64,000 nt of DNA from Xestospongia bergquistia (taxonomy: Eukaryota > Porifera > Demospongiae > Haplosclerida > Petrosiidae): contig OZ014422.1 in the NCBI GenBank assembly GCA_963965975.1, forward strand, positions 2,806,155 to 2,870,154, given 5' to 3'. The first letter of the stretch is position 1. Each line of letters opens with the position of its first letter. Shown here in pieces: positions 12,421 through 60,154 of the stretch. Made by a program: the position numbers and the translations under genes. Below the pieces are notes generated by a model, which saw only the letters and a program-made list of their open reading frames with translations, did not search any database and had not been told where the DNA came from.

Positions 12421-15400
12421 ATGGATCCATCACCTTCCAACTTTCCAGAGAATAAAAATGAGCAATTGCCTACAAACCTAGAAGATAGAGAGTCATCACC
12501 TAAGTTACAGGAGAAAAGCAATGAACATTCAATTAATATTGACCAGTCATCTCCTGAGAATAAAAAGTCATCTTCTGATGATGTCATTGACCATTCAACT
12601 TCTAATTTGCTGAATAAGACTAGTCAGTCACGCTTGTATCAGCATTCACCTTCTCCTTCAATGGAAGGTATTAATCCTATTTTATAGTTATACTATCGAA
12701 GTTAATTGGTTGATTTAACTATTATTCAGTTATATAGGTTGTAATTACAAACTTATTTTTGTTGGAAAAATATTCATAATATGTTTTTTTATTAATGTCC
12801 TACTGCTTATATATATAGCTACATAGCCATCAACTTCATAATACATTAGTAATGAAAATATTATTAAGTTTATTTTTTGCATATGTAATCCAATAACCAT
12901 GCATTAGTTAAATCAACTAATCAATTTTTACAGCGTAATATGTATTTATTCTGCTCTTTCAGATGACTTTGTAGATGTATCAGCCTTGCTACCAGAACGT
13001 ACAGCAAACTCTCAAGGTGCACCGTCACTGCAAAAGCTTTCTGAAGGTATTTCAATTTATACAAAAGAAATATTATTAAAACACACAACCTCAGGTTTGT
13101 GTGTTTGGGATGAGTCAGGAACTAAGACGTATATTGAGATTACTAAAGCACCATTTGAAGTATCTCAAAGTGAAAAATTAGAAGACCAAGAGTTCTGTAT
13201 ATCTTTCAAAGAGGAAACAGTTGAACATGTTCGCTGCCATTCCCTAGAAACTGATGATTCTCAAGTACTGAGAAGTCATTTGGAAACATATGAGAAGATT
13301 AAAGCAACCATAGCTGTACTATTGATCACAAAATTGCAGTTGAATCCACAGCTCCACATACCAGATTTTTGCATTCACATTCCAGTATATATCACTTCAG
13401 CCAGGAACAAGCAAATTCTTGAACGTTGTAGTAAATGTAAATTTTTTTCAATTGATGTTGATCAGGATGAAGGTTAGTATTCCTTCACAGATCTAAATAT
13501 ATTACTATTTCATTTAGATATTGAATCATCAGCACAATCTTTACTGGAATATTTTGAAACTTATGTTTTTCCTGGTCGATCAAGTTCAGTAACTATTAGT
13601 GATCATCCTGCTGTGTTTAAACAGATCACAAAAGTCATAGTTGATGAAGAACTGTTAAAAGTAGATTACTAATGAACTTATAGTATCTATATTTGTAATG
13701 TTCAATGGTGTAGCTAAATTCTTTTGCCTTATAATGCCACATATGTGCACTAGATTATATAGATAGATAGATATATTCATAAAGGTATGGTTAGTTATTT
13801 ATAGCACTAAATTAATAAATAACATTTTCTATATCAAAGCCATGATCATTAATTTTTAAAGGCCATTTTGAACTACTATAAGCTATCTGAAATTAAGTAG
13901 CCATGTGCCTAAAGCACCTATGTGAGTGATGAAGTGTCATTAAAAACTTGAAAACCCATATCCTTATGACTTGACCTAAACCTGACCTGGCAGGCCCTGG
14001 TATAGCTACATCACTGATGATTTTATTGACTAATTTATTGTTCTATTCTTGTTATAGGATAAAAGTGTATACGAAGCTGTAACACTCTTATGTGACAAAC
14101 TTGATGAAATCATTAATGATGATTTCCTTTTTCTTATTCATTTATTAGCCATATTGCTAAAGTAAGTAATATTGAGTGTACTAGACATAAAAATAGTTCT
14201 ATTATTAAAGGTCTAAACTTAGGTTTGGAAAGAAAACATCAACAGCTATCAAAGAATTAAGGGATAAAATGAAAAATTGCATCATTCTGTTGTCACAAGA
14301 GCAATTGACAAGGATAGTGAATACTTTCTATAGCAGGTATTCCATTTTATGTAAAAGTAACGAGAATATAATTTATAAATAGATTATAAATATTAAAAAA
14401 TTACACTATAACTGTCTTGTAAGTATTCCACATCAGACAGAATCTTGCCAACTAAATTTTCTGCTTTCCAAAGTAACTTAATTCATTAAATAAAAATACA
14501 GAGTGTACTATACAGAGATTAAACTTACCCCATTCATGCTTCTTTAGTCATTCTATAGCTTCTCCCAAATGACAATACTACCTCCACAAGACAGTAGGTG
14601 TGGCAAACATTGTTCACTACATAATATGACTAAACTAATTAAATAATTACTAGCACTATATACAAAACTATATCTTAGGTAATGATTACAGCAAATAACA
14701 TCATCGTATCTTTAATCATTATAACTTGTTTATAATTATCACTGTAAAAATAGATTGGTTGATTTAACCAATATATAGTCATTATTATTATATATATAAT
14801 ATGTACATGTGATGATATACTGAGAAATTTAATAATATACAATGTAGTCTATTTCCTTCTCATGTTTGCACTGTAGTAATATGGACAGGTAGAGCATATG
14901 TTGCTTTCTCTTAATAAGGAAATCAGTTACCTACATCTGTTTACACCATTGCAATCAGCAATGTCTAGCCAGCTATAATATATTAAAACATAATACTTCT
15001 AAGTATTTCATTATATACTTTTTACAACAAAAATGACAATGAATTGGTTAAATCAATCAATCTATTTTTATATTGGTATATCCCAATCAATAATGTTAGA
15101 AAACCCTACATTAGAGCTATTATAATAATCATGACACTATTGTTTACAAAATAATAATATCATTGTAGAGGGAATTTCAAAGTTAAGACATTTGATTCAA
15201 GTCCTTGTACTGTATATCACAGTCTTCACAATGCAATACTAATGCTACTGCGACACATTAAAGATGAAACCAAGCCTGAAGAAATGGATAAATCAAACTT
15301 GTCATTTTATTTGAAAGCACTTATAATGTTGAGTTAGTTTGATTGAAACCCAAACATTTTGTAATGTTAATGTTAATTCACTTTTTTTATAGTTAGTGTA

Positions 15401-18400
15401 GCAATTAAATTTAAAGATTGTGAAGTTGATAGATGTAAATTTTCTCCACTTAGTGCATGGAAGTACATGTCTAGTGTAAGTATTTTCTTTATAGTAATTT
15501 AATGCTCTTTGTTTTATTAGTTTCTCTCAGCCACACGTCTGACCTCTGAAGTAGTGGGAGAGTTATTCCGTTGTTTTCGAGATGCCACGTGTCTTAATTT
15601 ACCTCCTGAGCATAATTTCTTTGGCTGTGGAGCTCTTAAAATGATCCTGAAAAAATCTGGAAGACCACGCTCATTTTCTGACATGGAGTGAGGTCTTATT
15701 CATAATTTCAATTATAAATTCTTCTTGTAATAGAAATATTGTCTCATGCCTGAATAAATGGATAACAGTTGATATAGTTTGTGAATATTTTTGTCACCAA
15801 GCATTGATGGTTCACAAACAAGCTATTTTAGCAGATAATGAAGTAACTAAAGAAAGACAAAAACAGGAATACATATCAACAGTAACAGTGGAAGGAAATG
15901 TTGTAACAGAGGTACATTAAAATTTATAATTACTAAAATTAATTTTATTTTCAACAGGGATTTAGCTATCTTGAAAGTTTGTATTGCTGTTATAAGAGTG
16001 TTTACAATGAAAACCTTGAAATTGGATTAAAAGAGTGGATAACATTTATATTAAAATTCTTAAACATAACGTCTGAAGGAAGTTTATCCACTTTGGATAT
16101 GATTTTTAATAATCAGTCATATACATTTTGTGATCATTGTGAACTGTCAAAACACTGTTTCAAAAAGGTACTGTCTCAAATCATAACTACAATAATTATA
16201 ATCAAGTTAAAATACTATAGGTGCAGGAATGTGGGCAAGAAAATCTTCAAAGCATTAGTTTGAAACAATTTATTGAACTCTCTTGCCGCTATAAAATCTG
16301 GAATACAGAAGTAAATAGTTTTAATGTATATTTTAATTATACAATCTTTGATTTCTTAGATAGTTCTTCAGTTCTTCAGATCTTATGAAGGGATACTTTT
16401 TTTCAAATCTAATGGTGCAATATCTAGTGATCATGTGGAAGCTTTAGTTCACTTTTCAGAGAGGTTCATAGTATATTCTTTTTAGCACACTCAATTGTTT
16501 CTTTATCTACAGCTTTAAAGGAGCGTCAAATCATAAATTCTTAGTAGATCACCTGCTAAAACCATTATCTCAATGTTATGTATCAAGGGAAGAGCCCCTG
16601 AAGTTTGTATTGGATCTTGTCCAACTTCAAGTGAAGTCCTTGTTGGAGATCAATGACTATAATGATCTTGCAGCAAAAGAAGAATTCTGTGTTTTTTTGA
16701 AGGAGTATTGCTTAAAAAACAACATTGGAGCATTAATAATTGATAAAGATGTCTTTACAAAAATTCAGGTGAAATTATAATTCCTAGACTTTAATGATCC
16801 ATTATCATAATCTCTACAGAAACAACTAAATTCAGGAAATAATTTCAAAAATATTGTGTTAAATGCAATTGCTGAGGTAATGATAATATTTGTTTATTAT
16901 TATTATATTCACTACATTCAGAGCTTGTCTACTTTCTTTGTTGGTCATCTTAATGATGAACAGAAGCTTTATATCTTCAGAATCATAGTTAATTCTGTTT
17001 GTGGAGATATGAAGAAGATGCATATTTCTTCAGATAAACAGTCACTTGAATTTTATTGGAAAATCATTGGGCATGTTTGTAACAAGATCCGGACATCAGA
17101 GGAAAGTATGAACTGGATCTATCGACTTAAAGCTGTTCTTGTTCGAATTGGTATAATTAATCGTGAATTTAGAAAGACACCAGGTGTATCTCAACTTCCT
17201 AACATTCCTGGAGTAAAGGCATATATTAGTGTAGCAGATACACTTAGACGAGTGTTGCACAAATGGAAAGTACAGTTTGATAATGATAAAGTCAGCTATG
17301 ATCAACTGTATGAATATTTTGGCAAAAAAGTTATCATTAGTGAAGTAGCTAAACAATTTGGAATGGATGATATAGTAGTACTGGAACAAGATGTAAAAAA
17401 GAAACAGAAGGAATTTTGTGATTGTCACAAGAACCTATCCACCTCTTTAATTCGAGTTCAACCAAACAATCCATCTAATTGGTAAGTTTAAAATTGATCT
17501 CTTAAGCCTTAATAACAGGTTTCTGTTTGACAGTATTCCACACAACAGTAGTTATATAAACTTGTGTCTCCAATTTTGAAAATAAATTTATAAATACACA
17601 AAACTTCTAAGAAAGTAGTATTAAACATAACTATAATGTATAATAAATTTAAGAGCAACAGAAAAAACAAAGTAACTATGAAGACAAGAAAAGTAGTTGA
17701 CCTCTCTTATCTACATTTACTGAATAACTTTTAGCCTCCTTTAAACCAATACCAGATTCCATTTTTAAATGATTTTTATCCTCCATTACATTATTTAATC
17801 TACAATCACTTTCAGATGTAACAGTGACACTAGTCTTTATTGATAAGAAGAAATTTCATATATAATAATAATAATTATTATTATTATTGACCTTTAAAAT
17901 TTACTGTTTCCTTATTTTTTCTGAACATCTACAATTTTAAGCTATATTCATAATGCTTTGTATATGCCCAAAATTTGAGCTAAACTATATATACTGAATC
18001 AAACGTGAATGATATTTTTGGTCAATTAATGATGTCATTTATATGTAGTCTTGCTACATGAGTATTATGTTCCCATAATACTCAATGCTTACTTTAAATG
18101 AAATGCACTAAAGTGCTTAACCTTGGTGCAGTCTTATCCAGAGACTTTCTTTATTCTATATAGCCTCGTCAAGTGATGTAATCCACGTGATGCGCTAGAT
18201 GATTTGATGACTCACCATTTCTCTTCTATTAAAGGGAAAAAAAGCTTTGCCTTTTAGTGCATCTACTGGGTACTTTGCACTCTAATTGACAAAAGGTCCA
18301 ATACTTTCCAACTTTTTAGTAAAAGTTAGTGATTCTCCAATGACAGCTATAGTGCTAGTATTTTTAGTTCGCGCTCAATGTATCGACAAAGATGACTGCC

Positions 18401-21400
18401 AAAAGTTAGTAAAACTGTCATAACTTTCCAAAGAAGTATTTTGGCCAAAATTCTCACTTAAAAAGTTGGAAAATGTCATAATCTGTATGCAGGAGGTTTT
18501 TATTGAATTCTCGAGTCTTCACTGAAAGCTGTGCTTTTTTTCAAAGGTTTTTCAGACTTTTAAAGCTTTTTGTTCATTTGGCGGTCCTTTTGGCAGTATT
18601 CTTAAGAAGTACAGAAGTATTGCTCCTGTCCATTATAGTTTGGTGGCTACTAGTGCCGTGTTTGCTGAGTTATAGCAGTTCAAAGCCATTTGCCCGGGTA
18701 ACAGACAGACAGACACATACACTGACAGACTACGGTAACCTGCGCTATGTGCCCATGCACAGCGAGGTTAATTATGGTCAAAATTTAGTTGTGGCTCCTG
18801 AAACCAATGCATATGCTGTGAACACTACATGCAATGATGTGTACCTCTGGTCTTCATTGAAGATCCTTAATTATCTCTTCCCTCTCCAATCTTATTAGTT
18901 ATTTACTATTACATCATTTCATTAGTACCATCAAACAATCTTAGGATAATTTTTAATAAATACTGTTTATTTATGTAGCAACTTAATTGAAATCTTACTT
19001 AAATCATTGTAGGTCCAGTCTCCATGACATGTTATTGGGTTATAGGGTGGAAATTCCTGAAGAGCTTTTGAGGGATATTAAGAATTCAGTTTATTTTCCT
19101 GGCACAAAGCCCAGTGAAGTTATCTGCCAGCAATTACCTCCCACTAGTCTTTCTCTTCATGTTAAAGTAACACTGACCCTCAAGAAATTGAATGGTATCA
19201 TTAGAAAGTTGGAATGTTTCCTTCGTCCTCTATTGCCAGTGATGACTATACTTGATTATTTCCACTTACAGAAGAGTGTTCTCTTTAAAAGATGCATGGA
19301 AGACGACTTGTTACCACTTGACAAAAATGTAACAACTGAAGAGCTGGCACATATCTTAGAGATTGTGAAGCAAAAGTTAGAAAGCATTCTGACTGGAACT
19401 GCCACATTTATTAACATAAAGACATTCCCCAATGATATTAGAAAGGAACTTCAAATTCTCATTGATTTCGTTGGCTTCCAGAAACATCCCAATGTTGATG
19501 TTGTTATTTCTCATTTTGAATACAAGATGATTCTTCAAAATGTCAACTCACTTTTCACATTTTGTGAAGATTTTCAACTTTCACAATGTATGAACAGTCA
19601 GAATATGATAGAGTTAAAGAAACTTGTAAATGAAAACAGAATAGAGGAAAAACAAGAAAGAGATATTGAAGAAGAGTTAAAAACTATTATTAACACTATC
19701 AATAAAATTGAAAGCCTTTTATGTATCAAAGAAGTGCACCAAAATCCTAATGAGAAATTTCAGTTTTTGAATCTTTTTGAGCCTCTTAACGCAAATATTA
19801 AAGAACTACTACAGTTTCTGAATGAAAACAATTTTCGAGGAAAAGGCCAGGTTCAATTTGAACAGTTATTGACCCTTGTAACTCAGAGGTTTCAACATGA
19901 AGAATACAATGCAGAAATTCTAACAACTCTGTACACTGTGTTCTATCTTATTGTTCCATTATATAATCCAGAGCTCTCATTTCAGGAACTTATAGAGATT
20001 GTGTCCCAGCTGGAACCATCCACATGTCTCGCTCAGTTACAAATAGTCAGAAGTAATATAGATCTAATTACAATGTGGTTCTCAATAGCAGAGGTAAGTA
20101 TAAATAATGAAATAGTGTTACAATACTTGATTAATTTTTGCTTTGTTTCAACTTCAGGGAGATAGCACTACTACTGAGCTGTGCACCATTGTTGATAAAG
20201 GCACATTCCATATCACAATCTCAGCATTGGCTGAAAGCAATGCAAACAGACTTGTTTTGATGTTTCAACCATTCCAAAAGGAATTAAGCTCAAGCTCAGA
20301 TCTTGCTAGTCTTCAAAGCTCTAATGTAATTATCTGGAATAGCACTGAGATTAAAGACTTCATTCATCGACTTGGATTTGCTAATTCCAATGATGATAAT
20401 GCTAAAATAGGACCATTTATGGAGCTGTTTGAAGTAATTCATTGGATTATTTAATCAATTTAAATTTTCTTTTAATTATGTAGATAGTAATTAAGATGCA
20501 AAGACAGATGGAATCACTGTATGAGATGGGACATCCTGACTATTCTGAATCTGCTTTCCCTCATGAAGTCAAGTGTTCTGCTAACATTTTTGAGCTGAAA
20601 GAAGTAGTAAGTTGTAGAACTGTATACTAATACTGAGATCAATGACTTGTCATAGGTAATGGAATTAGAACAAGTTATGAAGGAATGGTCTGATGAGGCA
20701 TCAATTAACAGAGACAAAATTAAGTGGCTTTCCTTTTTTACAAATGCTAGAGTACTTAAGATCTATGAAGTAATCAACTCTGCTGACTTATCAAAAAGAG
20801 AAAAAGCAATGAAAATTTTAAAACAACTTTGTTTTCTTGTGCCATTTGGCTACAGTGATGGTGTCATGTGTCATATGGTAAGCTTTCTATATTCACATTA
20901 ATTTCAAGTATTAAATTATAGGAGACTCTATTGGATTCTGTAAGTCTTGTTGGAGTCCCAACAGAAATAGTTGGATCATTTCTCGATACATTATTTCAGT
21001 TCCCTGGATTACAGTTACCACTTCCACCTCCTCATCGCATTTCAACATACCATAACTATGCTGTTCTTCATCAGTGTCATAATTTTTCACCCAAGCAACT
21101 CATAGTGTATCTTGCTTCCATTAATGAGCAGTTACCTAAATCTTATGAGATTTTTCAATGTCATTCTGACACAACAGAAAGTGATATTAAGCTAATGTTC
21201 CAGAGGATAGAGTTTTTTCCCAGGCATTATTACTTTCTTGAAGTAAACACATTGCCCTCTGGGTTACAAGAGGTATATAAAATGACATAAAAATGAGTTT
21301 CAATATTGATCATGCAGAGTTTGATACAACAACATATAGAGATTTATGGAAGAATGCTAAAGTCAGGAAATTGTTGTACTCTTCATTTTGTTGAGACATC

Positions 21401-24400
21401 TTCTTCACTTTTATATGAAGCTCCGTACATCAACACTATTGTCAGTAAATGTGTGTGTGTGTATAAGCACACGCATGCATACATGCATATATTTTTCTTA
21501 TGCAGAAACCTGAGGCAAAAGAAGATGCAGTAAGAAAGCTCCCAGTAAATCACTATTTTGATGTTATTGAGCTAGTGTACGGCTCACAAGGTAATTTCAA
21601 TATCTAATTGTTATATGATTAAAGCACATGTAATAAACAGATTACACTATAAATAAATTACAGAACATAATAGCTGTAGTTTATCTAATATATAATCTGA
21701 ATATTTTTATGAATGTGTCATCTAGGTAATGGAAAGACACATTATATCAAAAGCCAGCTTGGTCAATCCTGTATGATTATGGCTATCAATGAGGCTTTCT
21801 CTACCAGTTGTGTTCTCAATAGTCTAAATTCCTTAAGTGATGAAAATGAGACTTCTATTCACATTAATTTCACACTTTTGCCACCAGGAGTATGTCATAT
21901 AATCATTTCACTATACATGATAATGTGTTTTGTATAGAGCAATGTAGCAGATGAAGAAACAAAGCAGTTCACTCAACTCATAAACAAAATTGGATGGTTT
22001 ATGTTTGACCTGTTCATTCTAGGTTTTGTACAAGACTTACACACTGGAGTGTCTTTTGGTGTTTCCAAACAACTTAAATGGAAAATATATATTGAAGTAT
22101 GATTAACATCTGTGTGCTAATGTCATAAAGTCTTTGTTTCTATAGGTTCCATCAATTACCAATGATCCTGACAAAAATCTTTCTTTGTTTCGAGATCTAC
22201 TGCCCACATTTTATTTTGTTGGCTCTGAGATATTGATTGATTCCAGTATACCTTATGTAGTTGATGATGATGTACAACTAGTGTGTAAATATTTGAGAGC
22301 TCTTAAATTAGAAGAAAAGAAACCAGGAAAAGGGATAGATCGCCTGTATAAAAAAGGTTAGTATTCATGTATACACTTAATTTAAAGTAGAAATATATTG
22401 AAGGTGGAGATCCAGTCAAGTTTTGTAATGAAAGAGACATTGACAGCTCTGAATGTCTACAGTTATTAAATGACAATATGCCTGATGTTTTAAAAGAGTG
22501 TAAGATCAGTCAGAAGCTGTTTATTAAGTAACTGATAACACTATAATATGAACTATTACTAATATTGTAGGTATATGAAGAGACGTTGCCAGTTTTTAGA
22601 TAATTTCCCAGCTTATAACTACAATCAAGGAAAAGGAACAAAAGGAGAAGATACAACAAAGTTAGGATCCACTCTAATGAAAGCAATGTTGAAGGAAGTT
22701 GAAGAATTTTGTGATCCCTCTACAAAAGAAAACTGGTCATTAAAAGCACATCAACAGGTAGACCTGGTAATATTAATTTCTTTTTTTATCAAACTACTAA
22801 TATACAGTTACTGTATGAGCAACATGAAGGTGGTGGTAGTATTGATTTAATTACTTTGTATCCTAACAATATCTCTTATGAAGAAAATGAAGCTTTTGAA
22901 ATTCTTGGTTTTGAAATTCCAACAATGATGTAAGTTTATTATATTACAGCAAAACTTGATTGTATTGTAGAAAACTTTATGAACGGAGTACATTGGATAA
23001 ATATTTAGCAAAAGCCCTCAGTTTGCCTCTGTCTAAAGTGACTGAAGTACAAGAAGGAATGAATAAAGAAAGGTACTACAAGAGGTTGAAAATTATTGAT
23101 GACAATAACTATGTCCTCACATTGGATTATGCTCTGAAAATGATCAATATTCATGAGAGACGTGAGTGTAGTATGCCTGTTATCATTGAGGGAGAAACTG
23201 GAGTTGGAAAAACAGAATTATTGAAGATGTTGTCTAAACTTTGGAACTACTCCTGGGAAGTTCAGTGGTCTAAATTGAAAGAGGAACTACAAACATTACT
23301 AAGAGAAATAACAAACAGTAAACAAAAAATACAATAATTTAACAATGTTTGTTTTTACTATAGATAGAAAATTAAGACTACAGTCATCTTGCCAGCATCA
23401 ACAAACAGGCATATCCATCAATAATGAAGAGAGTCTAATAGCTGAAAATTGGAGTGATGTGGAAGTGTTAGAGAAAGCTATTTCAAAATTAAAACAAAAT
23501 CCAATATTGTCTTTAATTCAACCAAAAAATATGACACACAATTTTTGGAAGATTATAGATGGAGCCAACATTCCACCAAATGAAATCAACATTTCATCAA
23601 TTGAAGTAAATTATTTTTGAATTAAAATGTTAGATTACGATTTGTTAACAGACTATGTTAAGAGAACTTCTTGAGACAGATGTATCTACTTTTTATAAAT
23701 TAGACATACATGCAGGTAGAGGTATAATTGAATTTTATTATTTATTGCCTTATCTTGAAAGGGTTAAATATTTCTGAAGTAATTAATTTCTTTGATGAAA
23801 TCAATAAACAAGCACAGCGGATTAAGAGATATTTTAGTACTTCTGAATGTGTACCTCGAGTAACAGTAAGATATTAAATATTAATAAGTGCATTACATGT
23901 TATTGAAAACAGGTATATCTTGATGAGATAAACACGTCATCATGTATGGGCCTTTTTAAAGAAATTGTTACAGACAGAACTGTTGATGGAAAGGTTAGAA
24001 TTAATACACTGTAATATAGCATTTATAATCACTTGTTGTATAGCCATTATCAGACAACATGTTCATCATTGCTTCTTGTAATCCTCTACGAGATGATAGT
24101 ACAGCTGTACTACGTAATATGAAGAATGTGTGGCTTAAACCAAGTTATTATGTACGAGAACTTCATCCTACAATAAATTATTTGAAATGGGACTATGGGG
24201 CTATGAATCATATCCAAGAACTTGAATATGTCACTGCAAAAATGAGAATATTAACAGAAGATTTTGATGATTCAAAATATCAAGAGTTAGCCTTTTTTAT
24301 AATGCAAAGCCAGCTTAGAATTAGGGAGTACGCTGAGGAGACATTAATTGAAGCAGGCTATTCAAATGATGAAGCAAAAAAGTGTGCAAAAGGTTGTGTT

Positions 24401-27400
24401 AGTCAAAGAGATATGCAGCGAGTATTTGATTTTTACAAGTGGTTGCTCAGCACATACAAACAATTTGAACGATTCTCTACCATTGAAGAGCAGCAAATGA
24501 GAGCTGTGCTAGTGGCATTAGGACTTGTGTATTATCTTCGACTGGGAAAAAAAGATAGAAAAAATTACAGTGAATTCCTTAATGCACACAAATTTGGATG
24601 TGTTGATTTTACAACTGTCTTTACTGAAGAACTAGATTGGTATATAGAAAGAGTAGATCTACCACCTGGAATAGCAAAAACAACTGCTTTAAAAGAGAAT
24701 GTTCTTGCAAACATTGTCTGCTGTCAAACACAGACTCCCCTTATTATCATTGGAGAACCAGGGACATCAAAAAGTCTGTCTTTTAACATTGTTGCAAACA
24801 CATTCAAAGGAAGAGCTTCCAAACATGATGATTTTAAAGTTATAAAACTCTTCAAGGGACTTCAACCATTTTTCTATCAATGCTCTCAACATACAACCTC
24901 AAAAGAGATTCAAAATCTCTTTAACCAAGCTATACAGCGGCAGAAGATATATGATACTTCCTCTGTTCCTACTTATTGTGTTGTCTACATGGATGAAGCT
25001 GGTCTTCCTGAAGAGCAACGTGAATCATTAAAAGTTCTCCACTATTTTCTTGATAGAAGAGAGGTTTCCTTTGTAGCTATCAGTAATCATGCACTAGATG
25101 CTGCTAAAACCAATCGAGCAATCAGTGTTTATCGTCCGGAAACATCTTCTGAAGACCTTAAGATTTTAGCAAATGATTTCCTACATTCCACAAAGCCCTT
25201 GGCTCAAGTGGAAACAAACATGATCACAGAGCTTTGTACAGCTTTTAGCTCAGTAATGAAAGTGAAAAAATTTAGATATTTTTATGGACAGAGAGATTTC
25301 CTTCATTTCATAAGTTTCTTACAAAGAAAGCGAGGCACTGGACTACTTAATGAAGAGATTGTACTTGAGGCTTTGGAGCGCAATCTGAATGGTCATGAAG
25401 ATTTTATGATAATACATAAATATTTCCTAAAAGAAGTAAGTCTTTCATTCCACTTATCACTATTCATGTTTTTTATAGATTGGTACTAATTACTCCAAAA
25501 TGTACCATAAGAATGTCCTTGAGATTGTTGATCAAAGTTTGAAAGATTTACCATCTAGTAATAGTCAAACTAAAAGTAGACCAGAACATACTGTTCGGTA
25601 CAAACTCATCATAGATACTAGTGAAGATGACTCAGTAGTTAGATATCTGTTTGCTTGTGGTATTCTTAACAAGAAGAAAACTCAAATGTTTGCATGTAGT
25701 GAATTTGTTGAAGGAAGTCACATGCATGTAAGTTATATGTTATAAGCAAGTCCCTTTGATTTGTTTTGATTATTTTAAAGATAAACACTATTGCTGGAAT
25801 TGTTCACTCAGTTGAACAAGGACATACTATACTAATGTTTCAGACAAATGAAATTCATGAGAGTTTTTATGAATTATTCAATCAGCATTTTCGAATTTTA
25901 TACGATCCGAAAAAAGGATTGAGATTATTTGCTAATATTTCCATTGGAGCTCATACCATGCCATGTAGAGTTCATCCAGAGTTTCAATGTATTGTAGTTG
26001 TGAAGAAATCTGAGCTAAACAAGACACCTCAGCCTTTTCTGAATCGGTTCGAAAAGTTCTTATTCTCTTATAATGCTATCTACTCCAGTGTATGTGAGAC
26101 CAAGCCTTCCAATATCCAAATTATTATTAAAACTACCTATGAGAAGGTATAATATACTTCAGAACATAGTATTGATATTAACCACCTGCTATATAGGTAT
26201 CTTTGTTGGTAAAGAAAGTTGGTGGTTCTAGAAGCTTTGTTGGGTACAGATCTCATCAAGATTGCTCTCTGCCTGACAGTCATTCTGACAGCCATAATGA
26301 AATGTCTTTTGACATACCTTTTGATCCAAATGCACTCAGTGGTAAAGAGTGTGGTTACAAGTTCATCCATGAGACACTTCATTCACTTCTTCTATCATTA
26401 CTACCTTCACTTGATCATGAATATGAAAGTGGATGTGAAATTGAAGAGAAATTTTGTGATGGTGACACATGCCTTGCAGTACTTGTTACTGCTTTGAATG
26501 CATTACATACTAAAGCTGGATGGAAAATACCTCAGGTATTGAATGAAACTGTCATAATTATTATAAACATATAAATGTACATCTTACAGGTCTCTGATTG
26601 TGAATTAAAGGTAGAGAGCAAAATCATCTTTGATATGCTCTTAAAAGATGAAGGGTTTTCTGGAGCTATTAAGGAGTTTGATTTTAAAGGTGCTATAGGT
26701 GAAGCACTTGATGCTCTACATAATAGAAAGGAAGTTCAGTTCATGGGTGAAGATTCTTGCCTAGTTATTGCAGTGATTGTGCAATGGCTTGTACAACATG
26801 TAACAAAACATTTAATGCATCTGCTAACTCCTGAAGCATTAGTTGTTAATGCTAGGCACATGCCTAACGTCTTAATTAAATCTTACTTTAAATTTCAAGA
26901 ACACTTTAGTTTGAAGATCTTAATCAAGTCACATCTTGAAAAGTTAGAAAGAAATCACTGGTGAGTTTAAAATAGGTCATTTTATGTTACATATAACTTG
27001 TTATATACAGGCAGTCTGAATTGTGTTCCAAGAAGGTTCTTGTCTACGCTCGACAATCTCACTTGTTTGGATGCTTACCATCAATTTACCCATCAGAAGG
27101 TGTGAAGGACAATAGCGATGTCAAATCATTAATTGAGAGTACAGTTTATGATGATCTAAAGGCTCTGAAAATCTACAAAATCTCTCCTGGTGACTTAGAG
27201 GGAGAAATTCAAAAACAAGTGCAAACATTTGTGGAAAACACTGTTCATACCATTTTTCTTATCATAGCTAATATGAAGGATATTAGTGTTAAGATGATTA
27301 ATCATCTTCGAATTATTGTTGAACAGAAAGAGAATGAGTCCTTAAATAGTAACAAACTCATTATGTTTCTTCTCCAATTTCCTCAAGAACAACAGCTTTT

Positions 27401-30400
27401 CACTCTGTGCTACCCTGTGTTATTTTTAAGTGGCTGGGACCACTTCTATTTGGATTCTCTCACAACAGATATTTCTGTACCTGGTCTTCCTAAATCTCTA
27501 CAAAATATTGTCGATATAAGACAATGCTTTCATGTAGCACTTGGTATTTCTAATACAGATTGCTCTATTAGATTAAGTCTAGAGCCTCTCTTAGAAGAAA
27601 CCATTACTGTTACATCTCCTAGGATGGTTGTTGGAACAACTGGTGGAGTGTACAACAAGCCAATGTCCATCATTGCTAGACAAACTCTGCTTAAGAAACT
27701 GTTGATAAAAGATATTGCACAACAACAAGAGAAACCCCAGTCTTTGTGTACTCCTGTCGGAGAAGCTCTTTGCTCTCTCTTCACTCAGTATTGGGATAAT
27801 GCTACTGTTGCAAAGTTTCTTCAAGATGCTGCACACTTCACATTTTGTCATCAGTCTACTCTTGGCATTACCAGTTATATCCAGACAAGAATAAAGTCAT
27901 TGTTTTATGAGTTTGTCATTTACATGCTATGGTTGATTAACCAAGATTGCAACTTGGACTGTTATGACTTTTCAGGTTCAAGCAGTAATACCACAATGGT
28001 AGAACTCTTTGGTGGTATCGTTAAGAGTCTATTTTTCAAATTACCAAGTTTATCTTTACTACCACATGCTTGTCATGCTCTTCAACCTCCCATGAATAAA
28101 GGTTTCCACTTTCCTTTCTTTGGTTTGGTCTATCACAATCTAGAAAAAATTCTGGATGGCTGTCAGCAAACTATAAACAAAACATTAAAATCTAAAGCAG
28201 TTGATCCATTTTCTAGTGTTCGTTCTAAACCAATTAAAGAATTTATGGAAAAGGAGATGTTTAAAATGATGAAAGAAAAACTACAAGAATTAGTCAATGT
28301 TAGCCAATATTATCTAGTTTACTATACATTTTATGTTTTTACTTTGTCATTTTAGCAAAGGACAGAGAATGATCCTATGATAATTGTTTTGTCTCATGTT
28401 GTGAAAGCTTTAAGAGATGATGAACTGTGGCAAAAATATTTAGTAGACTTCATAAAATACAAGTGTATATCTGACCACTCTGGCAGTCAGACTACTGCTA
28501 TACAGTCACAATATAAGGAAGATGATTGGAGTTGTGTTATTGATGCCTACTTTGATTTCAATCATAATGTGAACCCACAAGATCCCATTTCTCTTTTAGC
28601 CTGGGTCCATGTGCATTCTGAAATTCACAAAATGGATTTGATTCAAACCATCAAACAAATGGAGAGATTACAAATATTTCTACAGAATCAAACACTGTCT
28701 GAAACACCTATGAGTCCTACCAAAAAAGATTTGGGCAGTTTTGTTATCAAAAGAAGTTTTGACTCCATGAACAAGATCATTTTTCAACAGAGTGAGGACA
28801 AAGTAAAAGATTTCAAACAATGGTATTTAACATATCAAGATATTGTAAGTGCATTGTTACAAAATACAATATATATATACATTATCTATTGTCTCCAGAT
28901 TCAAACAGAGTCTTTGTATGATTGTCTTCATGATGTGGAAGATGATCATTTAAGACTGCTATTTTTCAAGACCTATATGATGTACATAGTCATCACTTGT
29001 AGTGAGAGCTTGACATTGACAAAAGATAACATAACATTTGCTATTAAATTTTTCCATGAATGTATTGAGGTGGTAATGATTTTAATCTAATTATAAAATG
29101 TCATTTTCTTGTAATTATAGATATCTGATGACATTAATATGGTAGAAGTTCTTTCAAGATGCATTTTGGTACTGAAAGATCAAAGCAGAACTTTCTTTTG
29201 CTCTGTTATTAATAAAATTCTGACTTTTATATTTCACACAGTCAATCTTTCCAGTGGGCTGCTATTATGTGAGTGGTTTTTCCAAGCAGCTTTACCTGAT
29301 AGTCCTAACTCAATTCCACTATTGGACTACCTATCTCCTGCTGAATATAAATACCACTTGCTTCGTATATTGACTAAAGATGACAACAAGGAAGTCGACC
29401 CTGATAATGTACTTGACCTATTCCAACCAACTGTAAGTATAACACAGATCATGAGTTACTAAAGAATTACTTGTTTCTACAGTTACGTATGGAAATAGGA
29501 AAAATGATGCCAAAAGACATCAATCCTATACAATGTGTAGAGGTTTTTATGTCAGATGAATCAAAGTCAAACAATGAAATGGTATAATTAAAAATGTGAA
29601 TGCTAACTATAAGCTTTGTTCTAGTGTGTATTAGCCAACATGTACTTGTTGGCAGCTTATGAGCAAATTTGCAGAAATACAGTCTCTATGAGTCTTTTTG
29701 TTGCCATTTCAAAACTAGAGAGATTCTTTGAAAAGGTACAATTTGAACTGTTGTATATATTTGTTCATATATATTCATCAAAAGGTGGAGAGCTCTACTG
29801 ATAATGTAAAAAGGATTTTACTAATTTTGGAAAGGGAGGCATTCATGCAGAGATGTCTACAAATTTTAGCAGAAAATTTAGCTAAAGATATTGGCTCACA
29901 AGAGGTATATATAATATGGATTCCATATTAGCTCTACTCTACATAAAATAGACAATATTGCACAATCTACCTGAAAGGATTGATGCTCTCTTAAAACAAG
30001 AAGGCTTAGAGGATAAAAGAGGTTTTTTTCTAAGCATGCATTTGTGGAAAGAGTTGAGAAATATTGAAAAGTTTATCAGAATAATGACAGAGGATTCCCC
30101 AATCACTTGTCTAAGTATATACAGTGATCAACTGAGAGTAAGATATAACAAAAATTTATTTGTGTTTGAGTCCACTTGTAGGAAAGACCTGATTACAAGT
30201 ACTCGCAATTCTCATTCTTAAGTTTTTTTGAAGGTAGTGAAGTAGGACTACTGTATAGTGAAGTTTGTACCTTACTGAGAAAAATACATGTAAATGAACG
30301 TGAAGGAAGGAAATTGAAATCAATGGCTAATTCTTGGTTAGAATTAGTAACTATTGTTCAGAATTTATGGTAAATTACATTTATATAGTAAAGAAAAAGT

Positions 30401-33400
30401 GATAGCAGTAGATTTCTCAACAGGAAAAGTCTTCAATATGCATAAAATACATGCATTTCGCATGTGTATTTGGCTTTGTGTATATAATGAATTCTATCAA
30501 AAGGATGTAAGATTTGATTACTTATTTCAATTTCAATTGTTTGAACTGTTATGTATGTAGATAAGATCTGAATCTCTTGCAAAAGTTGTTAGTAAACAAT
30601 GTCAGGGATATTTTTCTGATGAATTTATCAGATTAATTGTTTGTTTCCTGAACAAAGATCTTGTTCAGAAGCATCTTGAATTGGAGGGTATTGATAGTAT
30701 TCATATCAAGTCTGTAAACTATGAAGAAAAACAAGTCAATCCTGTCTATAACTTCTTTTTTGCCAGTCATCCAGGTTTGCTGTTGCATTCATTATTGTTT
30801 TTGTTATCTATAATATGTTAGATGCTCATGAGAAGCAAATTCGTAATGCATTACCAAGTGTGATTGCTGTTGCTCTAGCTTGTCCAGATCAAACCACACA
30901 TTTGTGGTATCATCTTTTCTCACCTGACAAACTTATAGGGACTTACATTTCTGGATTTTTGGTATGAGTTTGTCTAGTTTTATCTTATTTCATAATATCC
31001 TAGGTGGATTCAGAGATAAAAGAAGGAATACTTTGTGACTGTGGTGTTATGTTAAATGAACAAGGAGAGTATGGCAGACCAGAATATTTACAACGAGCTG
31101 AGAAGGGAATTTTAAATTTACATTCACTTTATTTACTTCTTTGGTGTAATTTTGGAGCATTTTGTGTCGATTTACTGACTCAACCAGGATCAATTATTAA
31201 AGGAGCTGTTATTTCTGACTATCAATCTGTTCATCACTATTGTAAATCACAAATGAATGCAATGTGGTTACATATGAGTACTAATCTTGGACTAACTGAT
31301 GAACAATTATCATTACTAATAGTGCGCTCTATGCAAAGAATGATACAGGTATACTATATATGAATAATTTATCATATACTATATTATTGATGAAGATATC
31401 TTGTGAAAATCCAAAGAGTGGTTTGTTAAGCACTTCAGAGCAAAGAGATGATTATGAACAGATGTGGCATCAACTAGTCTTTGTTCCTACGTTAGATGAA
31501 GTCAAAAATAAGGTTAGTATTTTAGATGAAAATGTTCTTGTTGTTTGAACTTATTGTACATAGTTTGGCCAGTATTTTCCAATATTTCAAACCAACACAT
31601 TCCTGGTAAAAATAAGGTAATGAATAAATGTTATCTTATTGTTGACTTACCTCTTTTCACAGACATTTAACTGATGTCTATCCCTTTCTTCCAACATTAC
31701 AAGAGTTCACACGTTATGTTCATGAAAATTGTTCATCCAATGAACTACTGGTTAGGTTTGTGAATCGTTACCCTCGTCTTCAAGCTGGAAGTGCTATACT
31801 TCCTTCTCTTATTGAGTTCTATCAATGGATACATGCTGAACTCTCTTACGTTATTACTAAGAGACAAGTTAATGAAATAACTGTTTATGAGGCTGTGGAT
31901 TTAGCTACTGAAATGTACTCATCAGAACTTGAAAATCACTACATAAAACTATTTGAAAAAGTTATTGGTAGGTGTGTTAGTATTAATACAATGATGGTTC
32001 TTAAATTCCACAGAGGGCTGCAACAATTACCTGAAAACTATTGGATATTCTATTAGTGTTAAGAACTGTGATGTGAGGAAGAAAATTGATTTTCCCTTCA
32101 TTACTAGAGAAACACCTCTTTTTTGTCTTACACCTGAAGATGCTACTAATGAAAATAGAGATATCATTTTTTTCTTAGTAATTGAAGATATTGTAAGTAC
32201 AGTATTCAATTATTATAAAAATATTTTGTTGTTATGACAGGTCAAGTTTCATAATAATTTCTTAGATGAGATGAAATCTTTAGTAGCTGAAAGTCATCTA
32301 GCTCTTCAGAAGTATATTTGTGACTCACCCAGTATACATCCAATAGGAGTTAATGAATATACGTGTATTGTAACTGAACACAGCAGGTTAACTAGTTCTT
32401 TCCTTTTTTGTTTTTGGATCATTGGATCATGTGTACTAGATCTCTGCTACAACTGGTATGCAAACATCAAACTAAAGAAGGGTATAATTTGGATAAGATA
32501 CAAGAAGACATTGTGATCAATTATATTGCTGGAAAGTTTAAGATTGATGACTGTCAAACAAAGTTAAAGAAAACCTTTTACTACATTGAAAATGAGCCTG
32601 TAAAATTGGAACATCCTACACAGTAAGAACTCCTAAAGATGGCAGTTTTTTTAAAATTTTTGATAAAGGTCAATGTTGACATTGAAGAGAGCTGATATAG
32701 ATAGTGACTTCAAGGTAACTTTTTACTATCAAAAAAACATTTTGTTTGTATTTTCTATACATAGATTTCACTATCTAAAGATGATGATTTTCTAGTTGCA
32801 TTAGAACATGAGCTATTGTCAATGAGTTATGAAGAAATAGTAGAAGTAGCTCGAGGTTTAAAAGCTATTATAGAACATATCAAACAGGTCAGTTACTGTG
32901 TTAGAACTTAGGATATAGCTTTTTAATGATCACTCCATGCAGAGACTGGACCAGGAACAATTACACAAAAACAATATCATAAATGATACAGTTAGAGAAG
33001 CATTACCAAAACTACTTTATGATCAACATGAGATTGACCTTGATGATTCAATGAAAATTTTTGATGATTTTGGAATGATAAAGTGAGTAGTCAGTTAAAG
33101 AGTTACCTTAGTTCATTGATATTAATTTAGACTTCAGAATTCTCATTGTGCATGTATTGGTGCCATACCAATGAAGAAAATAGTCACAACTCTTGCACTA
33201 ATTGTGGAATGGATTGAAGATGGAGTATATGATTTCTATACTCTACCCAAAGCAATGAAGAGACCATTGAGGGAAGAAGATAAACAGGAGATACTGGCAC
33301 TACCACAAACATATGATCAGAGTATGTAATTTCAACAAGTGGTATATCTTAATGTAATTACAGCATATCCTGATGAACTCCTTCACAAGCTAAAGGTCAC

Positions 33401-34240
33401 TGTTGAAGTACTAATAAACTGCCAACAGCATTTTGTTAGCAATATTGATAAAATCAATGAGGTCTGAATGATATTTTGTCATTATATATGTTACATTGCA
33501 TGTGCTATCACGCAGGAGAGTATATATAATTACATGAAAGGACTTTCCCTCATTCGTGATGAGCAAGAAGTAGAGATAAAGCAAGTATTGCCACAACAGA
33601 TATGTATACTAAAGAATTACATGGCATTAAGGATATGTCTGAGAAAGTCAGTTGTAAAATCTCAATAATAACAATACAATAATGTATTAATATAGAGTAA
33701 TTAATACTTTGGAAGAGAAAACAACAAAAGAGGAAGAACCAAAATGGTTTGAATATGTTGAAGATTTGTGGACATCTGAAAACAAATTTAAACACTTACG
33801 AGATGTTTCTAGGCCACTGACATTAGAAGAAGTCTATAATCCAACTACTGGTTTACAATATGGATTTGAAGCAGTAGATCAAAGCATCACATCCATTGAA
33901 AAAAAGAGCATAGAGAAAAAAGAACCTACAGTTTTACTGGAACAAATAGCTTCTAGCAGATTAGGTTAGCTAACAAGTTCAAATATAATTATTCTTGTCT
34001 GATGTTATAGATGATCAACTAAGTCAAGTTGCAGCCAAGCTCACACAAGATGATGTGGCAGATTATTTACGATGTCTGAAATTGGATCAATATGTTGATA
34101 CATTTCTGGAGAATAAAATAGATGGCGATATGATGTTTGATATAACTTCTGAAGTACTTGAGGAGCTTGGTGTGGATGTAAATGCTCATAGAATAAAGAT
34201 AAAATGTAAGTTCAAGCAGTGGCTAAGAAAAATGACATAA
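12421..34240 (+). CDS. RNF213-like: RNF213 (mysterin)-like giant AAA+ protein with SAM
   Basis: About sixty exons, mostly with tiny introns, sum to roughly 15.6 kb or 5,200 codons, close to the length of human RNF213. RNF213 is a cytosolic dynein-like AAA+ ring fused to an E3 ligase, linked to lipid droplets and defence against intracellular microbes. The order seen is an acidic/Ser-rich N-terminus, a long helical region (to about 21500), P-loop GSQGNGKT (split across 21589/21726), P-loop GETGVGKT (about 23190) with Walker B VYLDEIN (about 23915), P-loop GEPGTSKS (about 24752) with VVYMDEAG and ISNHALD, then hinge and E3-type scaffold, and finally a SAM domain. No RING or RZ Cys/His cluster was found where the family carries them. 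Start: first ATG after a likely acceptor; an upstream exon is possible. The apparent stop near 13669 lies in an intron (donor gtagat after EELLK). Exon edges were placed by eye, so some may be off. Confidence 0.88.
12701..12931. mobile_element. MITE-like element in RNF213-like intron 1
   Basis: Inverted ends carrying the same core as the other family members (12701-12729 and 12897-12931), inside the first coding intron. It is shorter (about 230 bases) and its inside is not clearly related to the other copies, so it may be a diverged or internally deleted member. Confidence 0.5.
13665..14058 (+). other. RNF213-like intron, nothing else seen
   Basis: A long intron between the exon ending in EELLK and the exon starting DKSVYEAV. 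It contains a short GATA run near 13758-13775 and no recognisable gene or element. Confidence 0.5.
14745..15072. mobile_element. MITE-like element in RNF213-like intron
   Basis: A 5' end of about 40 bases (from 14745, taaaaatagattggttgatt) is repeated inverted at the 3' end (to 15072). Internal blocks (gtagtctattt, ggtagagcat, acctacatctgttt) match the reverse strand of the element at 10321-10701, showing the two belong to one family but inserted in opposite orientation. It lies in the intron between exons ending about 14337 and starting about 15169. Confidence 0.8.
17483..19012 (+). other. Largest RNF213-like intron, unusual composition
   Basis: The 1.5-kb intron runs between exons ending NNPSNW and starting SSLHDMLLG. 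The part at about 18150-18870 is richer in G and C than the rest, has a CAGA-type run near 18705-18730, and contains an open frame of about 130 codons without recognisable domains. It resembles a repeated or mobile-element remnant more than host intron, but no terminal repeats were identified. Confidence 0.45.
21570..25434 (+). other. AAA+ motor core of RNF213-like protein
   Basis: Three P-loop-type motifs occur in order: GSQGNGKT (exon junction 21589/21726), GETGVGKT (about 23190) and GEPGTSKS (about 24752). In the RNF213 family the third and fourth AAA units are the active ATPases, and these would be the second and third motifs here. Walker B equivalents are VYLDEINTSSCMGLFKEI (23914-23967) and VVYMDEAGLPEEQ (about 24980). 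Sensor-like IIASCNP and ISNHALD follow. Both catalytic glutamates are present, so ATP hydrolysis is probably retained. Confidence 0.85.
28356..33965 (+). other. E3-type scaffold lacking RING and RZ fingers
   Basis: This part keeps segments I recognise from the RNF213 E3 module: KQCQGYFSDEF (about 30595), which in the family follows the RING; a helical block with LGLTDEQLSLLIVRSMQRM (about 31290); and YNLDKIQEDIVINYIAGK (about 32480). Between the exon ending VQNLW (30369) and the exon with KQCQGYFSDEF (from 30561) there is no cysteine cluster, and the intron there shows none either. The RZ-finger position near 31020-31080 has only CDCG and no CPNGH-type motif. The comparison is from memory of the human protein. 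Confidence 0.6.
34012..34240 (+). other. C-terminal SAM domain of RNF213-like protein
   Basis: The last exon encodes about 75 residues ending KQWLRKMT. The SAM pattern is clear: VADYLRCLKLDQYVDTFLEN, then IDGDMMFDITSEVLEELGV and HRIKIKCKFKQWL. SAM domains mediate self- or hetero-association and sometimes RNA or lipid binding. The preceding exon ends in phase (RL plus a split Asp codon) and joins cleanly, so it is part of the same gene. Confidence 0.85.
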
Positions 34241-34428: not shown

Positions 34429-35294
34429 TTATTTCTTGTTAATTGTTTCATTATATGCCACATATGAGAGATCAGTGCCACAAAGTTTGTCCCAAATGGT
34501 AAAGAATGCTCCAAAATTACCTTTATTATGAGAATGATGATAATCATGAACTTGTGCACCTGGTCTGAAAGGAAAATATCTAAATGGCATAAACCATAAA
34601 TCATAGCCTGAGTGACCATCCATCGATTCTATGATACGTATACCAAACCACACCCAAAATGTGTAGATGTGACTTTTAAGAAGAAATGGTCCTGTAATCA
34701 ATGGTAAAGCTCCAGTAAGGAAGTTCTCTATTGGATGAGCATATTCATATGACAATGAGATAGGATAATTATAACGATGATGAATCTTATGGATGGTCTT
34801 ATAAAGATATGGTGTATGGAGGAGACGATGGGTCCAATAAAACTGAGTATCAACAATTATCATAAATATTGGAATCTGTATTATCATTTCTGTCCTAAGA
34901 ACAAAGGATGATTATATATTTAGTGTCTAGGTTTGTTTTACCATGATGGAAGTGGTCCATCAAATGTCATCCTTTGTTTTAATATCAGATAAAAGAATGG
35001 TAAACTTAAAGGCCCTATTATAAAATGAAACACTGCTACCACCTTAATACACTTGATTAGTTGTGGTCTTGAGAACTTTGTAGGCTAAAGAATCATATAA
35101 CATATAATATATGTACAATGTTTATTTTTACTTACTGGAGTTTTTTGAATCTTTGCATCTTCAAACAAAGAATATCTTTCAATTATTTCGTAGAATAAAA
35201 ATAACAGAGCAGTGACGCCAGTATGAATTATCATTGTAGTCACTATAAACCATATCATTTCTCCCCAGTTGACAAGCCCTAGAAAATCATCCAT
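34429..35294 (-). CDS. Fatty-acid/sterol hydroxylase (FAXDC2-like), copy 3
   Basis: Three exons (35136-35294, 34942-35084, 34429-34894) with the same boundaries and length (255 residues) as the copy at 8159-9024. The protein differs by roughly a dozen substitutions, such as TGVTALLFLFY for TSVTVLLFLFY. All three histidine boxes are intact: HRLLH, HKIHH and HDYHH. Expected to be an ER membrane di-iron oxidase acting on a sterol or lipid. It stands head to head with THOC1, the two start codons being 95 bases apart. Because THOC1 is whole here, this is probably the ancestral locus and the other two copies are derived. Confidence 0.92.
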
Positions 35295-35389
35295 TTTGTA
35301 GCCACTCCTTTACAAAATATAATCGCCCACTCGCTACTATAAAGAACACGAGACTACGACGACACCACACCTCTACCCTCGTGGTAATA
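35295..35389. promoter_or_regulatory. Compact bidirectional promoter
   Basis: Only 95 bases separate the hydroxylase ATG (minus strand) from the THOC1 ATG (plus strand). The first 45 bases, including cgcccactcgcta and a ctataaag TATA-like stretch, are conserved at the hydroxylase copy at 9025-9065. Both genes must be driven from this stretch or from sites inside the genes. Confidence 0.7.
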
Positions 35390-37003
35390 ATGGCGGCAGC
35401 CCAAAGTAGTTTAGAAACTCGCCGTTTCTTTGCCCAACACATTCTTCATTGTAACAACGACCTGTCAAAATTACAGCAAGCCTTTCAACAGGCTTTTGGC
35501 AACGAGAGTGACAAGAAATCGATTTTTGAGCAGTCTTTTCGTGATGTAATGCGAGATATTATTGTTGACAGTCACAAAACTGCAGTAGAGTCGTGTAAAT
35601 CCCTTGTTGTCTTAGCCATCCACAGTGCTGAAACTGATATCTGTTATCATTCTGTTCCGTTCCTTCTTCTTTCAGACGCTTTTGATTGCATCACACTCAA
35701 CCTTTGTGAGCACTTGTTTGATGTTGTTGAGACCCATGTAAAAACTTGGACGAAACCTACTTTCTTTAGTTCGGGTAAAATCCTCTTGCTTCGTATGTGT
35801 AATGATCTCCTTAGACGGCTCTCCTCCTCACAAAATACATTATTTTGTGGACGTATACAACTCTTTCTTGCTCGTTTGTTTCCTCTTTCTGAAAAGTCTG
35901 CTCTTAATCTTATGAGTCATTTCAATTTAGAGAATGTCACTTCATATAATGCAAAGAAACCAACAACAGATTCTGGAAAACAGAAACAAACTGAAGAGGA
36001 AGAAGGTGAAGAAATGGAATTAGAATTACCCTCAGAAAATACCTTGGCATCAGAACGACCAGTTGATTATAATCTTTATCAAAAGTTGTGGTACTTACAA
36101 GACTTTTTTCGTCAGCCTACACAATGTTTCCATAGTGATCGTTGGAAAACCTTCACAGCTACTGTTCAAGAAGTCCTTCAATCATTTTCTAGTTATAAAT
36201 TAGAGCATATCCAGACAAAGAAAAGAAGCAAAGATGACACAATGGAGGTCACCTCACAAACATTTACTAGTTCACATTATTTTGCGAAATATTTAACCAG
36301 TGAAAACTTAGTCAACTTACAATTGAGCGATAGTCATTTTCGACGTCATGTTCTCATTCAACTACTCATCTTGTTTCAGTATGTCACTGGTGATGTTAAA
36401 TTCAAGAATTCATCACAAATTCTAACTGATGCCCAAGCGCTTTGGGTGAGTGACACTACTACTAAAGTATATAACTTGTTAAGTGAGACACCACCTGATG
36501 GCAAACAGTTTGCAGACTACATTCGTCTTGTCATTCAAAGAGAAGAGACTTGGATAACATGGAAAAACGAAGGTTGTCCCTCTTTTGAAAAAAGTCAAGT
36601 CCAGTCTTCCATACCTACTCAATCCCCTCGAGTGAGACTTGGTGACAAACTCTATAAGACAAAAGAAGAAAAAGACATTGGTAGCAAAGAGCTTTCTCGA
36701 CTTTGGAACCTCTGTCCTGATAACCTTGATTCTTGTACTTCAGCTGAGCGTATTTTTGTCCCTCCTCTTGACATTTTTCTGGAAGAAGCTCTGGAGCAAG
36801 CTAAACCAGATTCTCAAGTCTCAAAAGAAGATAAAATAATAAATAAACCTAATTATTGTTGGCAAGCACTACGTCTTCTTTCACGAGAAAGCCCCCACTT
36901 CTTTCCCTATTCCAACCAATCTCAGATACGTCCACTCGATGAATACTTAGAAAATGTGATTGTACAAACTGCAAAAGACTTTCAAGCCAATGGCTCTTCA
37001 TAA
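35390..37003 (+). CDS. THOC1: THO complex subunit 1
   Basis: A single uninterrupted frame of 537 residues. THOC1 (HPR1) is a core subunit of THO/TREX, which couples transcription to mRNA packaging and export in the nucleus. Strong family signatures include LLRMCNDLLRRLS, NTLFCGRIQLFLARLFPLSE, NLENVTSYN, PVDYNLYQKLWYLQDFFR, LQLSDSHFRRHVLIQLLILF, TWKNEGCPSFEK, LSRLWNLCPDN and CWQALRLLSRESPHFF. Human THOC1 is about 657 residues with a C-terminal death domain; this protein stops before that domain. The ATG at 35390 is chosen; an in-frame GTG lies three codons earlier. The lack of introns is striking beside its many-exon neighbours and raises the question of a retrocopy that took over this promoter, though the locus looks functional. 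Confidence 0.95.
   Translation: MAAAQSSLETRRFFAQHILHCNNDLSKLQQAFQQAFGNESDKKSIFEQSFRDVMRDIIVDSHKTAVESCKSLVVLAIHSAETDICYHSVPFLLLSDAFDCITLNLCEHLFDVVETHVKTWTKPTFFSSGKILLLRMCNDLLRRLSSSQNTLFCGRIQLFLARLFPLSEKSALNLMSHFNLENVTSYNAKKPTTDSGKQKQTEEEEGEEMELELPSENTLASERPVDYNLYQKLWYLQDFFRQPTQCFHSDRWKTFTATVQEVLQSFSSYKLEHIQTKKRSKDDTMEVTSQTFTSSHYFAKYLTSENLVNLQLSDSHFRRHVLIQLLILFQYVTGDVKFKNSSQILTDAQALWVSDTTTKVYNLLSETPPDGKQFADYIRLVIQREETWITWKNEGCPSFEKSQVQSSIPTQSPRVRLGDKLYKTKEEKDIGSKELSRLWNLCPDNLDSCTSAERIFVPPLDIFLEEALEQAKPDSQVSKEDKIINKPNYCWQALRLLSRESPHFFPYSNQSQIRPLDEYLENVIVQTAKDFQANGSS

Positions 37004-43029: not shown

Positions 43030-60154
<17,125 letters not shown>

Follow-up and report, generated by a model that had tools for sequence, protein, structure and literature searches.

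We report here a giant gene of the sponge Xestospongia bergquistia, located in a 64,000-nucleotide stretch of contig OZ014422.1 (assembly GCA_963965975.1, positions 2,806,155 to 2,870,154 of the forward strand; hereafter the window). Its sequence supports a place among the RNF213-class AAA+ proteins, and no RING finger and no mammalian-type catalytic RZ finger was found in it. The gene belongs to an expanded RNF213-type sub-family that keeps the ATPase ring, shows no RING or RZ and carries a C-terminal SAM domain. We tentatively propose, a little short of an even call, that its product acts as a ubiquitin-independent AAA+ machine that would assemble through the SAM domain and be switched by ATP. 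The genome searched comprises 146 Mb in 21 contigs, the window being C12:2806155-2870154; window positions are used throughout for the gene, and genome coordinates elsewhere.

The AAA+ motor and the gene model

The motor is clearly of the RNF213 type. An 866-aa stretch matches nine distinct human and mouse RNF213 chain sequences (best E 3.8e-48, phmmer), and an upstream 395-aa stretch also matches human and mouse RNF213 around the AAA3 P-loop. Walker A and Walker B are complete in both AAA3 and AAA4. At the sequence level the core is of the dynein-like AAA+ kind, and its AAA3 and AAA4 are competent. A preliminary description of this DNA had stated that an RNF213-class motor is kept and that its ATPase motifs are intact; these matches bear out both points. 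The homology covers AAA3 through the AAA6 exon, with AAA1 and AAA2 outside the alignment, and the giant size is likewise shared with the mammalian proteins.

The exon 27012-28298 is the last part with clear RNF213 homology, which reaches about 28.3 kb and was established by profile with the sponge copies. Against the canonical copies of the same genome it gives 90.7% in hhalign (E 1.3e-6) and a profile score of 61.9, the maximum of 25 shuffles being 21.5; a profile of this exon did not retrieve RNF213 from the PDB sequences. Its AlphaFold2 model (pLDDT 69, pTM 0.63, six sequences in the alignment) resembles AAA+ domains in its first 150 residues. The top two Foldseek matches of the model are human RNF213 (E 3e-6 and 2e-5), with TM-scores of only 0.27 and 0.29 and an rmsd of 15-16. 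SAMD9 stands at rank 22 of that listing (E 0.011). Both SAMD9 and SAMD9L are large P-loop proteins of immunity whose SAM domain lies at the N-terminus, and they belong to another P-loop class than RNF213.

A SAM domain is present at the sequence level at the C-terminal end of the gene, with PF00536 reaching 43.7 bits in the spliced protein (cut-off 23, E 3.6e-11) and E 7.4e-11 in a raw-frame scan. The SAM exon goes beyond the preliminary description, as do the 14 loci of this kind and the RING-plus-RZ, RZ-only and kinase-fused relatives described below.

The gene is a single long one on the + strand, modelled as 68 exons and 5,373 codons with no stop and a median intron of 49 bases. The model was built without RNA by splice-aware dynamic programming; its scores for codons and splice sites were learned from the window, and it is thus not independent evidence. 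One exon (29625-29735) was placed by eye, and the exons at 18235-18849 are doubtful and may be false, as they lie in repeat-like sequence inside a large intron. Seven tandem paralogues set a donor at 30337 and the next exon at 30389, which removes an apparent frame break at 30370-30424 and rules it out as a real one.

Searches for RING and RZ fingers and the region after AAA6

In the spliced C-terminal 1,336 aa, Pfam reported SAM families only at E <= 0.01; in the same run, the RZ of the canonical copy L061 was detected at 1.9e-12 as a positive control. The three raw frames of 28.9-34.24 kb gave the SAM domain and one chance match (E 0.16), with no RING or RZ; the stretches meant as controls for that scan missed the RING exon and thus provide no control. 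A genome-wide six-frame search for RZ returned nine places, none of them in the window; it is blind to the RZ of the C7 genes, which an intron splits. Pfam is weak for the atypical L061 RING, which goes unreported in the spliced protein at E <= 0.01 and reaches just E 0.04-0.4 in the raw frame. A homology search with this RING picked up the three C7 genes, together with weak matches on C5 and C6, and none in the window.

The cysteine content points the same way. No CxxC pair occurs within the last 2,383 aa of the window gene; among the finger-less relatives there is one in L057 and there are two in L058. A strict Cys/His cluster scan, which flags the L061 RING and one of three RZ fingers (that of L062, not those of L061 and L055), flagged nothing in the window gene or in L056-L060. 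A laxer scan, which flags the L061 RING and all three RZ fingers, marked two loose clusters in the spliced protein of the window gene, at 26308-26652 and 30263-30683, and one or two clusters in each finger-less relative, at other places. The cluster at 30263-30683 is not counted as a finger, because its residues are not spaced as in a finger and the paralogues do not share most of its Cys and His.

Taken by method, Pfam and the scans found no RZ with metal ligands and a catalytic Cys in the window gene, and the homology search and the Cys/His scans found no RING such as the E3 module of RNF213 has. The preliminary claim that the gene has neither finger therefore agrees with what was seen in the spliced C-terminal part and in the raw frames, and its statement that no cysteine cluster precedes KQCQGYFSDEF stands under the strict scan, and at the lax setting a loose cluster covers that position.

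What becomes of the E3 module is a separate question. The preliminary description pictured an E3 shell kept around excised fingers, with the RING position before KQCQGYFSDEF (30594-30626) and the RZ position at CDCG (from 31034). The profile comparisons do not support this picture. Over 28.36-33.97 kb, a profile of the six finger-less genes scored 27.6 against canonical copies, the maximum of 25 shuffles being 27.1 (E 0.095); the stretch expected to hold E3-back, shell and core (28.36-31.35 kb) scored 20.6, below the shuffled maximum of 22.4 (25 shuffles), and the stretch expected to hold the C-terminal domain (CTD; 31.4-33.97 kb) as a whole scored 27.1, its shuffled maximum being 27.3. The exception is a 30-residue stretch with a weak match to the start of the L061 CTD; its score was 25.2 (E 0.011), and none of 60 shuffles went above 19.3. 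As similarity at the two finger positions is at chance level, both are unproven; likewise, the claim that the gene closely follows RNF213 order is borne out as far as AAA6.

It is conceivable that the protein is still a ubiquitin ligase by way of an unrecognised cysteine site. CDCG itself is replaced by YDCG, YDTG or YDAG in the 12 compared paralogues. In favour of such a site, all 13 sequences compared share two cysteines of the 31004 exon, at its positions 54 and 80. However, searches for similarity to known E3 enzymes in the window gene found none, and in reports on mammalian RNF213 the catalytic Cys lies in the RZ, the RING is dispensable and the E2 docks on the CTD (PMC7311170, PMC12075652, PMC11549300); RZ deletion or loss of the catalytic Cys ends activity, with the partial exception of C4462S, which retained some autoubiquitination (PMC12075652, PMC11549300). 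We give this possibility little credence.

Related loci in the genome

A search with the AAA4 exon gave 55 matching stretches, grouped by position into at least 37 RNF213-type loci, and the counts for each group (see the table) are lower bounds. The C-terminal half was read in nine of the 37 (the window gene and L055-L062), several ending early, and in part in L064 and L065. Clades A and B, 14 loci including the window gene, are finger-free wherever read. L061 carries RING and RZ; the window gene and L056-L060 carry neither in their models; L055 and L062 (C12 0.85-0.98 and 2.44 Mb) keep the RZ, with no RING in the model. Across the genome, RING matches occur in three loci and RZ without RING in six, and five C12 genes at 0.85-0.97 Mb match an L061 query solely in the part after the RING. 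On C7 all three genes show RZ matches, two of them partial; the others lie in six C12 loci, on C15 and in two large open frames of C14, which we take for putative ZNFX1. ZNFX1 is a helicase with an RZ finger; no RZ that would place the window gene there was found, and no separate helicase search was made.

The C7 genes belong to this motor family and are its canonical copies in the genome. Among them, L061 aligns with mouse RNF213 through RING and RZ (E 3.4e-30) and with human RNF213 in the CTD (E 2.5e-15), whereas the window gene shows no RING, RZ or clear E3-module similarity to the human and mouse proteins and ends in a SAM domain; the other two C7 copies have RING matches and partial RZ matches, and no SAM match lies at C7 7.36-7.44 Mb. 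The RZ-only copies L055 and L062 resemble the window gene in that no RING was found, and differ from it in retaining the RZ. Since they keep the RZ, as does mouse delta-RING RNF213 (PMC7311170), they would be expected to be active and may represent a natural counterpart of that mutant.

The genome search returned 77 SAM matches. By strand and distance, in our own pairing, a SAM accompanies 13 of the 14 clade A and B loci (8/8 in clade A and 5/6 in clade B, two of the latter with tandem SAMs), and SAM exons were also read directly in L057, L066 and L067. In the one clade B locus with no SAM, C14:1550943, the AAA4 Walker B is degenerate as well. Two further SAMs, 14-19 kb downstream, are paired loosely with loci of the C2 array. 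At C12:1641733-1644968, a partial clade A copy (L047) holds a 31004-type exon and a SAM, with no AAA4 match.

A different ending was found on C2. In L064 and L065, one open frame runs from RNF213-like sequence through a coiled-coil-like stretch into a protein kinase (PF00069, 5.7e-32 in L064; fused segment 1050-2653 in L064 and from 1206 in L065). A query across the kinase junction matched four C2 loci over almost its whole length and a fifth over residues 98-397. The first four form one clade (100/100), in which the AAA4 Walker B looks degenerate. As at least four related genes thus carry a kinase after AAA6-type sequence, C-terminal modules are exchanged in this family. In this single genome, at least four kinds of C-terminal region follow the RNF213 motor. 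Most of the 103 matches of a kinase query lie in a large array of related protein kinases on C11.

A tree of the AAA4 half (30 rows, including human RNF213) separates the 24 genes of clade A, clade B and C2 from a group of six made up of the RZ-bearing copies and human RNF213 (100/100), with the window gene inside clade A (99/99); this support applies to the separation itself, and not to where the finger-less branch joins relative to the split between human and sponge. This bears on whether the gene could be a regulator or decoy of the canonical genes, sharing their motor, lacking the output and modulating or titrating the ligands of active copies. It does coexist with RZ-bearing copies, and it is well separated from them in the tree. 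However, its motor is far diverged (its AAA4 exon is 32-34% identical to that of the C7 copies), the RNF213 ring is complete within one chain (PMC7311170), and 14 loci seem a large number for a decoy; we regard such a role as distinctly unlikely.

Selection argues against decay. Against clade A, dN/dS is 0.22-0.30 in the AAA4 exon and 0.22-0.40 in the 31004 exon (seven pairs each), and it is 0.37 against L057 over 2,304 C-terminal codons. These values are well below 1 and thus indicate purifying selection and no decaying copy. Over the 31004 exon, dS against the seven clade A paralogues is 0.15-0.23, compared with 0.47-0.58 in the AAA4 exon; the low value may reflect gene conversion, so the 89-90% protein identity of the exon is no simple proof of strong constraint. 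The circularly trained, RNA-free model and its doubtful N-terminal exons would allow the gene to be decaying, or the model to be wrong and to hide the fingers. Against this stand the selection values, the 5,373 stop-free codons, the likewise missing fingers in five more genes (L056-L060) and the raw frames, in which none appears; hardly any credence can be given to such an explanation.

Possible function and genomic setting

We propose the following mechanism. In mammalian RNF213, ATP binding at AAA3 and AAA4 is reported to activate the E3 module (PMC12075652). By analogy, ATP binding or hydrolysis at AAA3 and AAA4 may switch the ring of the window protein between states, and this switch, rather than driving ubiquitin transfer, would expose or drive SAM-mediated assembly. 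Many copies might thereby form a coat on a target inside the cell, or collect partners that bear a SAM domain, possibly in cell-autonomous immunity, a role that the tandem expansion fits. Coats on Toxoplasma gondii vacuoles form in RNF213 RZ mutants and need the ATPase (PMC11549300), so that ATPase-dependent assembly apart from ubiquitin transfer is already known. An ATP-switched, SAM-assembling and ubiquitin-free machine is favoured here because the protein keeps what assembly needs, lacks what transfer needs and adds a SAM domain.

Several observations weigh on the other side. SAM domains serve purposes besides polymerising. The AAA4 Walker B is degenerate in two of the 14 clade A and B loci (L020 and L022), and the AAA3 motifs were read in the window gene alone. 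The loose Cys/His cluster at 30263-30683 covers the RING position of the preliminary description, and the region of 28.4-34.0 kb may harbour an unrecognised activity.

The main rival is that the protein remodels or senses in concert with a ubiquitin ligase encoded elsewhere, recruited by the SAM domain or by hetero-assembly with RZ-bearing relatives. Genes with RING and RZ and genes with RZ alone are at hand in the same genome, and the 77 SAM matches offer possible partners; the nearby stand-alone RING gene at 38443-39285, however, shows no SAM in Pfam. We consider an arrangement of this kind rather unlikely.

More broadly, and with slightly greater reserve than for the SAM-assembling machine itself, we suggest that the RNF213-type AAA+ ring may be a general chassis with exchangeable outputs, the window gene being a polymer- or coat-forming, ubiquitin-free immune machine. 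If so, ubiquitin transfer would be one output among several, since the ring occurs here with RING plus RZ, with RZ alone, with a kinase, and with a long finger-free region that ends in SAM. RNF213 matters both in human disease and as a broad antimicrobial factor, which gives weight to the question of what its ring does besides transferring ubiquitin. A natural sub-family with the motor and neither finger separates the two functions by evolution and thus lets one ask what the ring does alone, and the relatives with a fused kinase or with RZ alone, being in one genome with it, form a natural domain-swap series.

Table. Coordinates of the window gene, its features and the related loci (positions of the gene are window positions)
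Feature	Position	Strand	Basis
Whole gene, RNF213-type AAA+ protein	12421..34240 (ATG at 12421, stop ending at 34240)	+	68-exon, 5,373-aa model
P-loop GSQGNGKT, intron-split, AAA2 by order only	21581..21739	+	Model; no RNF213 alignment here
AAA3 Walker A GETGVGKT	23191..23214	+	RNF213 alignment and model
AAA3 Walker B VYLDEINTSS	23913..23942	+	RNF213 match and model
Single exon across AAA3-AAA4	24044..25435	+	RNF213 match and model
AAA4 Walker A GEPGTSKS	24752..24775	+	In exon 24044-25435
AAA4 Walker B VVYMDEAGL	24980..25006	+	In exon 24044-25435
One exon with an AAA fold (AAA6 by order) and the first part of the helical stretch that follows	27012..28298	+	hhalign, AlphaFold2/Foldseek
Region after AAA6, no RING, RZ or clear overall RNF213 similarity found	28356..33964	+	Pfam, cluster scans, profile comparison
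Two exons at the RING position of the preliminary description (KVFNMHKIHAF; KQCQGYFSDEF)	30389..30774	+	Model, paralogue alignment
Exon with CDCG, the RZ position of the preliminary description	31004..31348	+	Conserved in 13 clade A/B sequences, first Cys not
30-residue stretch CKHQTKEGYNLDKIQEDIVINYIAGKFKID, weak likeness to L061 CTD start	32459..32548	+	Profile comparison
C-terminal exon with SAM domain	34011..34240	+	PF00536
Clade A, 8 loci	Window gene; seven more in tandem, C12 1.59-1.80 Mb		AAA4 exon match
Clade B, 6 loci			AAA4 exon match
C2 array, 11 loci	C2		AAA4 exon match
C7, 3 loci	C7		AAA4 exon match
C12, 5 loci	C12 0.86-0.97 Mb		AAA4 exon match
C12, 1 locus	C12 2.45 Mb		AAA4 exon match
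C2, 2 loci	C2 10.1-10.2 Mb		AAA4 exon match
C15, 1 locus	C15		AAA4 exon match
Kinase-fused loci	C2:9719403, 9742458, 9765795, 9789140, 9842672		Junction query or reading

Two nearly identical open reading frames (ORFs) flank the gene at 8159-8641 and 34429-34911, both on the - strand, and the one that was scanned is a fatty acid hydroxylase; near-identical frames on both sides suggest a segmental duplication or insertion. The stand-alone RING protein at 38443-39285 (-) has a hydrophobic C-terminal stretch, its RING being found by Pfam at 1.3e-10, and it lies downstream of a presumably THOC1-like gene at 35273-37003. A dynein heavy chain gene, recognised by eye from its ORFs, occupies about 43000-59500 (-).

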